Source: an uncultured Verrucomicrobiae bacterium
Lineage (GTDB): Bacteria; Verrucomicrobiota; Verrucomicrobiia; Limisphaerales; J093
Length of the DNA: 64,000 nt
Assembly: GCA_937946835.1 (NCBI GenBank)
Contig: CALFAV010000011.1
Coordinates: forward strand, 1 to 64,000
Direction of reading: 5' to 3'
Made by a program: the position numbers and the translations under genes
Part shown: positions 14,699 through 17,279 of the stretch, one piece after another
Position numbering within the stretch: position 1 is the first letter of the stretch
Layout of the letters: every line of letters starts with the position of its first letter
The notes under the pieces: model-generated
Told to the model about the DNA's origin: nothing
The model's input: only the letters and a program-made list of their open reading frames with translations
Databases searched by the model: none

Positions 14699-16708
14699 TC
14701 ACGGGCGCCGCTCGCGAATGGCCGCCAAAAGGTCCGCCACCACCTCCGCCCGCGGCCGGGCCCCCAGATTGCCCTTGCCGTGCAGGCGCACACTGACCTG
14801 GCCGGCGGCCACGTCCCGGGGGCCGATCACCAGCATGGTGTGCACGCGGGCGGCCTCGGCCTCCGCGATTTTGGCCTTGACCGGGGTGGCGGTGAAGTCG
14901 GCCCCGGCCCGCACCAGGTGGGAGCGCAGTTCCGTCACCAGCGGGCGGGCGTACTCGACCAGTGCCGGGTCGTCGTGCAGCGTGATCACCCGCACCTGCT
15001 CCGGCGCCAGCCAAAGGGGGAAATTGCCGGCGTAATGCTCGATGAGGAAACCGATGAACCGCTCGTGCGTGCCCAGTGGGGCACGATGGATGCACAGCGG
15101 CGTCTTGTCGGTGTTGTCCCTGTCCCGGTAGGTCAGACCGAAGCGCCGCGGCACGGCGAAGTCCACCTGGTTGGTCGCCAGGGTGAACTCGCGTCCGATG
15201 GCGCTCCAGACCTGGACATCAATTTTCGGCCCGTAAAAGGCCGCCTCGTTCGGCGCTTCCACAAAGTTGATGCCCGAGTCCTTCAACACCTGCCGGACCA
15301 TGTCCTCGGTCTTGCGCCACAGCTCAGGTTCGTTGACGAATTTTTCACCCAGCCGGGCGGGGTCATGGGTACTGAAGCGCATGACGTAGCGTTCAATGCC
15401 GAAAATTTTGAAGTACCGGAGGTACATCTGGTTCACCGCGTTGAACTCCTCGGCGAACTGCTCCTCGGTGCAGTAAATGTGCGCGTCGTTCATGTGGAGC
15501 GAGCGCACGCGCATCAGGCCGAACAACTCCCCGCTTTGCTCGTAGCGGTAGCAGGTGCCGTACTCGGCCAGCCGCAGCGGCAGGTCCCGGTAACTGCGGG
15601 GCCGGGAGGCGAAGATGCGGTGGTGGTGCGGGCAGTTCATCGCCTTGAGGAAATACCGCTCTGGCGGAACCTCCAGCTCCGCTGCTGTCTTTGCTTGTTC
15701 CAGATCGCCCTCGGCTTGTGCTAGCTCGTCATAGAAAGCCTCTGGGGAAGGATAGTTCATCCGGTTTTTGAGGACTTGGGACACCCGCGTTTTGGCTTGG
15801 AGGATTTGCGCCTCCTGGTCGCCTTTGCCCTCGCGCAGGAGCATGGGGGGGAACATGCTCTCGGCATAGTAGGGCAGATGCCCGCTGGTGGTGTACATCT
15901 TCTCCCGGGCCAGGTGGGGGGTGCGCACCCGCACGTACCCGGCCAGGAACTCGGTTTCCTTGGCCAGTTTTTCGAGTTCCTCGCACAACACCGCGCCGTT
16001 GGGCAACCACAGGGGCATGCCGGGGCCGACGTACTCCGGGTCCATCACGTACAGGTCCAGTTCCGCGCCCAGCTTGCGGTGGTCCCGCCGCCTGGCCTCC
16101 TCGAGCATGGCGAAGTACTCGTCCAGTTCCTTGCGGGTCCGGAAGGCGGTGCCGTAGATGCGCTGGAGCTGGGGATTGCGCTCGTCGCCCTTGTAGTAGG
16201 CGCTGGCCACACTGGTGAGCTTGAAGGCACCGATGTTGCCGGTGCGCGGTACGTGCGGGCCGGCGCACAGGTCCACGAAGTCCCCGTTCCGGTAGTAGGT
16301 GATCGGCTCGCCCTCGGGGATTTGCCCGATGAGGTCCAGCTTGAACTTGCTGGGGTTGCCCGGTCGCTCGGACAACCCGCCCAGCCGGCCGCTTTGGGCG
16401 TCCGCAATGGCCTGCGCGCGGGTAACCTCAATGCGCTCAAAGGGGTGGTTGGCCTTGATCTCCTTTTTCATCTCGGCCTCGATGGCCGGGAAATCCTCCG
16501 GCGTGATGCGGTGCGAACATTCCAGGTCGTAGTAAAACCCGTTTTCGACCGGCGGGCCGTAGGCGAACTGGGCGTCGGGCCACAGGCGCAAAATGGCCGT
16601 GGCCATGACGTGGGCGCAGGAATGGCGCAACCGCTCCAGCTCGGTCATGCGCGCCCGCTCGTCCGGGGTTTTGCGTTCCGATTGGGGTGCTGCGTCCGCT
16701 TCAGCCAT
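14699..16708 (-). CDS. thrS: Threonine--tRNA ligase (no N-terminal TGS domain visible)
   Basis: LRHSCAHVMATAILRLWPDAQFAYGPPVENGFYYDLE, KAMNCPHHHRIFASRPRSYRDLPLRLAEYGTCYRYEQSGE; ATG at 16708. Confidence 0.93.
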   Translation of the reverse strand: MAEADAAPQSERKTPDERARMTELERLRHSCAHVMATAILRLWPDAQFAYGPPVENGFYYDLECSHRITPEDFPAIEAEMKKEIKANHPFERIEVTRAQAIADAQSGRLGGLSERPGNPSKFKLDLIGQIPEGEPITYYRNGDFVDLCAGPHVPRTGNIGAFKLTSVASAYYKGDERNPQLQRIYGTAFRTRKELDEYFAMLEEARRRDHRKLGAELDLYVMDPEYVGPGMPLWLPNGAVLCEELEKLAKETEFLAGYVRVRTPHLAREKMYTTSGHLPYYAESMFPPMLLREGKGDQEAQILQAKTRVSQVLKNRMNYPSPEAFYDELAQAEGDLEQAKTAAELEVPPERYFLKAMNCPHHHRIFASRPRSYRDLPLRLAEYGTCYRYEQSGELFGLMRVRSLHMNDAHIYCTEEQFAEEFNAVNQMYLRYFKIFGIERYVMRFSTHDPARLGEKFVNEPELWRKTEDMVRQVLKDSGINFVEAPNEAAFYGPKIDVQVWSAIGREFTLATNQVDFAVPRRFGLTYRDRDNTDKTPLCIHRAPLGTHERFIGFLIEHYAGNFPLWLAPEQVRVITLHDDPALVEYARPLVTELRSHLVRAGADFTATPVKAKIAEAEAARVHTMLVIGPRDVAAGQVSVRLHGKGNLGARPRAEVVADLLAAIRERRP

Positions 16709-16812
16709 AACACACTCGGTGGTTTTGCCGGGTCCGGCGGGGAAGTTTTGGGCGCCGGGCCGCCCGTTTCCCGACCGCCAAATCCCCGCCGGTGCCGTCC
16801 CGCGGCGCAAAC

Positions 16813-16848
16813 AAAAAGGCCCCGGACCGCGCTGGTCTGAGGCGGGGC
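16813..16848 (-). terminator. Candidate attenuator terminator of thrS leader
   Basis: Minus strand GCCCCG-cctca-GACC-agcgc-GGTC-CGGGGC then c-TTTTT. Confidence 0.6.
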
Positions 16849-16870
16849 GTACCGGGCGTGGCCCGGACGC

Positions 16871-16906
16871 TTAGGTGGTCGCGGTGACGGAACCGGCGAT
16901 TTCCAC
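16871..16906 (-). promoter_or_regulatory. Thr-rich leader peptide ORF upstream of thrS: (M)EIAGSVTATT*
   Basis: Minus strand GTG GAA ATC GCC GGT TCC GTC ACC GCG ACC ACC TAA; in-frame TAG four codons upstream of the GTG; 3 of the last 4 codons are Thr; followed by hairpin 16852-16866 and terminator 16813-16848. Confidence 0.5.
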
Positions 16907-17279
16907 GGCGGGAAACTAGGGGTTGGCGGGGTGCTTGGCAACGGGTTTTCCAAGGTGGGCCGACCGGCCCGGCCCCGGGCGGATGCGCCGGTTTGACGGC
17001 GAAGAACAACGGAATCGGGGACCAGCGGCCCGGGCCTCCGGCCGGCGGTGCGGCTCCCGGACAACCTCCATCCCGGCACAGGTTTTGCTAGAATGGAAGC
17101 GAAGGGCGCGCCAACCCGGACCGGGAGGTTCCGAACCGTTGGCGGCGGCCGGCCCGAGTCGGTTGGCCGGGGGCCGCGACGGCGCCCGCCATTCAGGTGC
17201 GTTGACATTGAGGACGGTTTGCCTACCGTCAAACGCACCCGGCGTTGTGCGCGCACGCGCGGGTTTTTGATTCAGCACC

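Follow-up and report, generated by a model that had tools for sequence, protein, structure and literature searches.

The window, by which we mean the whole 64-kb stretch of DNA analyzed here, carries thrS, the gene for a threonyl-tRNA synthetase (ThrRS), which is adjoined by a divergent gene encoding a GspE/PilB-type ATPase (Table 1). The thrS product matches the NCBIfam model TIGR00418 with 559 bits, against a cut-off of 384, and contains the Pfam domains tRNA_SAD, tRNA-synt_2b, and HGTP_anticodon; a Pfam search gave no match to a TGS domain in this protein. It is the sole ThrRS detected in the source genome. The closest relatives that bear a name are MAGs from the Verrucomicrobiota, several of them carrying the label Verrucomicrobia subdivision 3, Limisphaerales, or Pedosphaera.

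Table 1 Features of thrS and its upstream region in the window (leader codon positions are counted back from the stop codon).
Feature	Position	Strand	Remarks
thrS, threonyl-tRNA synthetase	14699..16708	-	669 aa; ATG at 16708
Intrinsic terminator	16809..16843	-	stem 16843-16819; T5 16817-16813; U-tract to 16809
Hairpin 1	16847..16870	-	directly after stop codon; proposed starvation-state hairpin
Leader peptide ORF (GTG...TAA), MEIAGSVTATT	16871..16906	-	Thr codons at -1, -2, -4
-10 element TAGTTT	16913..16918	-	17-nt spacer from -35
-35 element TTGCCA, predicted thrS promoter	16936..16941	-	conserved box

Ahead of thrS lies a short ORF that reads GTG GAA ATC GCC GGT TCC GTC ACC GCG ACC ACC TAA and is closed upstream by an in-frame TAG (16918-16916). 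As the original prediction had described, this mini-ORF is rich in Thr codons, the hairpin CCGGGC-CAC-GCCCGG follows it, and a terminator-like stem with a T5 tract stands about 105 nt ahead of the thrS ATG. The hairpin is contained within a longer structure, GCGTCCGGGC-CAC-GCCCGG(T)ACGC, hereafter hairpin 1, which is separated from the terminator by 3 nt. Folded together, hairpin 1 and the terminator reach -32.5 kcal/mol (z = -2.9 relative to dinucleotide shuffles); the fold of the longer leader region stands out less (z = -1.3). Both strands of the window were scanned for mini-ORFs whose last five codons include three for the same residue and that have a hairpin at the stop codon and a terminator. 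This site was the only one returned, and the same scan over 1.01 Mb of related loci gave 149 sites, 131 of which were of the Thr type.

The spread of this arrangement was assessed with thrS upstream regions gathered from 58 relatives and 80 named contigs. A regular expression describing the terminator alone picked out 46 of 122 regions, 43 of which could be parsed with a stop codon ahead of the hairpin and read out as Thr-codon leaders. Copies were also collected partly with a covariance model, R1, which spans the stop codon to the U-tract alone and, being built without the leader codons, could not select for Thr codons; all 73 strong R1 matches that were read out had in-frame Thr codons before the stop. 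At E < 1e-9, R1 matched 111 of the 293 genomes of the order, with one strong copy each and, among the matches listed, every copy in a different genome, which places the leader system in the window's bacterium and, within its order, in at least 110 of the sampled relatives. A strong copy was absent from ~60% of the sampled genomes of the order, perhaps partly because of incomplete assemblies and search filters. Weak extra matches within the order (L243-L251) contained no Thr run. Outside the order, a search of 388 genomes across the phylum yielded matches in 16 other genomes up to 1e-6 and none stronger than 1e-8; these matches were weak, and the alignments inspected were mostly terminator-only look-alikes.

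Linkage to thrS was judged for every copy whose contig or stretch extends far enough, leaving out two copies at contig ends (L187 and L200) and one whose stretch ends early (L233). In all of them thrS lies downstream, directly so in most; in L198 it follows behind two other genes. Intervening genes were also observed elsewhere: a LURP-one-related gene (PF04525) separates attenuator and thrS in L273 and L275, a similar frame does so in L272, and a PD-(D/E)XK gene occupies this position in L274. Like L272, L273, and L275, other loci with a leader-thrS distance of 500-700 nt probably contain an intervening gene. Given these genes between attenuator and thrS, the leader may control small operons.

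The thrS coding sequence itself is interrupted in some relatives. In five loci (L276, L277, L278, L279, and L281, from genomes G054, G057, G002, G041, and G033), thrS occupies two genes, the break falling after catalytic motif 1 and before motif 2 (query residues ~300-349), and each half is provided with a stop or start of its own and with ends that resemble coiled coils. The cargo between the halves differs, comprising an N6 DNA methylase, a DUF2130 gene with an OLD-like TOPRIM/AAA ATPase, another DNA methylase, a pRiA4b ORF3-like gene, and prepilin-like genes; L278 also carries a shortened duplicate of the beginning of the C-terminal half (residues 349-381) between the halves. At the same ThrRS site, an 860-aa single frame in genome G005 (L280:71-2650, minus strand) contains an IS200/Y1-type (RAYT-like) transposase domain in frame. 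An Rfam scan of the split-thrS loci found no attenuator and no intron. As judged from their sequences, several relatives possess a naturally split ThrRS and an insertion hotspot.

Across 101 distinct copies of the leader, Thr occupied position -2 before the stop in 98, -3 in 93, -4 in 89, and -5 in 60. The codons are frame-specific, with almost none in the other two frames, and all four Thr codons are in use (ACG 163, ACC 73, ACT 64, and ACA 53), indicating that the residue rather than a DNA motif is conserved. Position -1 is filled by Ile, Phe, Leu, Arg, or others; Thr occurs there solely in the window copy (1/101), which has diverged further than any other copy compared (40 bits vs 49-79 for the other 99 aligned). 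The ORF begins with GTG or ATG in 99 of the 101 copies and is usually 10-12 codons long. An ORF with a terminal Thr run, kept in this way in 101 copies, is probably the leader ORF of an attenuator in the broad sense.

Hairpin 1 has a stem of 8-15 bp across copies and a loop of 3-8 nt that varies in sequence; its base is the third base of the stop codon in 85/101 copies and so lies inside the stop codon in most relatives. The original prediction had looked to homologous leaders for retained Thr codons, a retained terminator, and covariation, and the 101 copies bear it out on each point. In 95 distinct sequences, RNAalifold and pair counts revealed two-sided changes at 8 of the 10 pairs of hairpin 1, with 95.9% of alignment cells paired; alignment A4 was fitted to the model structure, which biases its pair counts towards that structure, and the unfitted MAFFT alignment A1 already gave six pairs with two-sided changes in hairpin 1. 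For the whole structure, the covariation score was 0.301 as compared with 0.146 for shuffled alignments, and none of 500 shuffles scored as high. The lower stem, GCGU:ACGC (16870-16867 and 16850-16847 in the window), is near-invariant across the order, beyond what pairing alone demands, while the upper stem covaries freely. Most copies repeat GCGU:ACGC in the arms of their terminator.

All copies also possess a terminator stem of 9-13 bp followed by a U-tract, with thrS downstream wherever the sequence extends far enough, as in broad-sense attenuators, and the U-tract TTTTTGTTT is conserved among them. Because the terminator is nearly invariant, covariation there is little informative. In distant Verrucomicrobiota (L255, L256, L258, and other weak matches outside the order), terminators built as (A)CGCC..CG....CG..GGCGTTTTT occur repeatedly with no such leader ahead of them, and given these look-alikes, the conservation of the terminator may partly reflect a general terminator style. 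Hairpin 1 and the terminator lie 0-3 nt apart in 101/101 copies. A constitutive terminator that happens to follow Thr codons, with no regulation, merits next to no credence: codons, frame, spacing, and covariation are conserved in 101 copies, and the comparative data refute it.

A promoter is predicted immediately upstream of the leader. The exact -35 box was present in the matching region of 62/101 copies as compared with 1.5% of mononucleotide-shuffled regions, and in copies aligned on the -35 box, the -10 element emerged at 17-nt spacing with T in 72%, A in 63%, and the final T in 81%. The conserved TTGCCA-N17-TAnnnT upstream of the leader is thus a probable promoter of the kind that accompanies broad-sense attenuators. 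A consensus promoter scan of the window sequence reported no promoter, because the -10 element is weak; it was comparison across relatives that exposed it. Among the 86 copies with a good -35 box, 60 had their start codon 35-36 nt from its first base and ~6-7 nt beyond the -10 element. The predicted +1 in the window is therefore ~16906, at or within 1-2 bases of the leader GTG, and the leader peptide is predicted to be translated from a leaderless transcript. The original prediction also depended on where thrS transcription starts relative to 16813, and the predicted start lies upstream of the terminator.

Taken as a whole, the region is very probably a ribosome-mediated, Thr-codon-dependent transcription attenuator of thrS, and the leader-peptide attenuation first proposed for this gene has gained in silico support from conserved Thr codons, a terminator, covariation, and a promoter. 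Sequence comparison supports the predicted leader, its codons, both hairpins, their spacing, the promoter, and the link to thrS; from these we infer translation, the response to Thr, the direction of the switch, and the step involving the abutting hairpin. A ribosome would load at the 5' end of the RNA and translate ~11 codons ending in the Thr run. When charged tRNA-Thr is ample, the ribosome would reach the stop codon and cover the 5' arm of hairpin 1, the terminator would fold behind RNA polymerase, and thrS would be off. Under a shortage of charged tRNA-Thr, the ribosome would stall on the Thr codons, its front just reaching the foot of hairpin 1, which would then fold. Set directly against both the 5' foot of the terminator and the stalled ribosome, the folded hairpin would block closure of the terminator stem in the RNA exit channel; with the terminator kept open, polymerase would read through into thrS. 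Given a footprint of ~12 nt beyond the A site, a ribosome stalled by Thr at positions -4 to -2 would reach the foot of hairpin 1 or slightly overlap it, and one that has moved on to the stop would cover the 5' arm of this hairpin.

How hairpin 1 might prevent termination can be weighed between several accounts. Steric blocking of termination by the abutting hairpin, with the ribosome deciding and no competing base pairs, is a reasonable but tentative proposal; the fixed abutment of hairpin 1 on the terminator suggests that the two exclude each other through the space they occupy and not through bases in common. The terminator was the favoured fold in ~95/101 leaders in every ribosome state (absent, at the stop, and at the Thr codons), and because simple folding prefers the terminator wherever the ribosome was placed, the case for antitermination has to be a steric or kinetic one. 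In a classical trp-type arrangement, the 3' arm (GRACGCC) or 5' arm (GCGU) of hairpin 1 would instead pair with the terminator arms as an antiterminator. Each arm of hairpin 1 does resemble the opposite terminator arm, 5' matching 3' and vice versa; the two 3' arms could pair in 99% of cells, and the lower stem is near invariant with a fixed purine-pyrimidine orientation. Yet neither the two 5' arms nor the two 3' arms covary with each other, and pairing of the 3' arms averages 5.8 kcal/mol weaker than the terminator when the 5' arm is masked. Moreover, L132, L202, and other loci have changed arms from which neither alternative can form while hairpin 1 is kept, and the alternative pairing would also be open in the Thr-rich state, which is the wrong direction. 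We therefore regard trp-type pairing as improbable. The resemblance of the segment after the stop to the 3' terminator arm, pointed out in the original prediction, is real and general, but folding yields no stable alternative antiterminator from it; the alternative pairings suggested there did not hold up, as folding, covariation, and energy comparison found no conserved, mutually exclusive antiterminator sharing a terminator arm, the hallmark of the classical trp/his type, in the 101 leaders.

Pausing is a component of the known trp and his attenuators, and hairpin 1 might likewise be an RNA polymerase pause hairpin that couples polymerase and ribosome, acting through timing rather than sterics. 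It is placed as a pause hairpin would be, with a conserved CGCCTC, then usually G, ~ten bases past its foot. This account leaves the 0-3 nt gap to the terminator unexplained and alone supplies no antitermination step, and we consider it rather unlikely.

Hairpin 1 could also be something other than part of a ribosome-read leader, namely an operator bound by ThrRS or a T-box reading tRNA. There are precedents for both: ThrRS binds an operator of its own gene in E. coli, and thrS of Bacillus has a T-box. A thrS T-box is mentioned in PMC7583486. However, Rfam searches at the gathering score, which include thr_leader and T-box, found a tRNA gene alone in each search of the window and 20 thrS loci, with no attenuator match. 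The loops of hairpin 1 vary in sequence and in length (3-8 nt), so the anticodon-like hairpin near the ribosome site that marks the E. coli thrS operator is not seen; hairpin 1 precedes the terminator, not the thrS ribosome site. An operator or T-box would further leave the in-frame Thr codons without explanation, and the ThrRS gave no TGS match. This interpretation is already largely refuted, and its probability is very small.

The ribosome-read attenuator can be set beside several known systems. In Streptomyces lividans TK24, thrL, a leaderless ORF, is a proposed attenuator upstream of thrS in one genome (PMC8079986). Like thrL, the present ORF is short, contains Thr, lies before thrS, and is predicted to be leaderless; thrL (MKRVRPFLETTPGFVPAR) contains two Thr codons and comes with a single hairpin and without a U-tract, whereas the leaders described here, in 101 distinct copies from another phylum, combine a Thr run directly before the stop with two hairpins and a clear intrinsic terminator. 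Leader-peptide attenuators of synthetase genes are known or predicted for E. coli pheST and Streptomyces trpS and leuS (PMC1262725) and for hisS in bacilli (PMC2965389), which share with the present system a run of cognate codons in the leader peptide, downstream structures, and a synthetase gene. In the classical synthetase attenuators, antiterminator and terminator are described as sharing an arm, whereas hairpin 1 abuts the terminator without overlap. As in E. coli trp, the hairpin after the codons would be free under a stalled ribosome and covered when the ribosome is at the stop; hairpin 1 sits where the trp 2:3 hairpin would, but unlike it borrows no terminator bases. A start codon at the transcription start, as predicted here, is shared with the Streptomyces leaders and with mycobacterial poly-Cys leaders, which are leaderless according to Canestrari 2020 as cited in PMC13236596. 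Mycobacterial cys leaders are without conserved terminator hairpins (PMC1262725), whereas the terminator hairpin is conserved here. By 2010, leader-peptide systems were recorded in Proteobacteria and Actinobacteria only, to which Firmicutes were then added (PMC2965389), and the open-licence literature searched yielded no thrS attenuator or other amino-acid-sensing leader in Verrucomicrobiota. The system thus appears to work like a leader-peptide attenuator in a new phylum while departing from the classical trp/his type in its defining pairing.

For annotation, thrS transcripts in this order probably start at the leader, as the predicted promoter implies. With its fixed geometry, no overlapping antiterminator, and an RNA of ~100 nt, the system would offer a small test case for whether attenuation needs mutually exclusive pairing. 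For the Verrucomicrobiota, the comparison adds a conserved, probable amino-acid-sensing leader that would control an essential synthetase.
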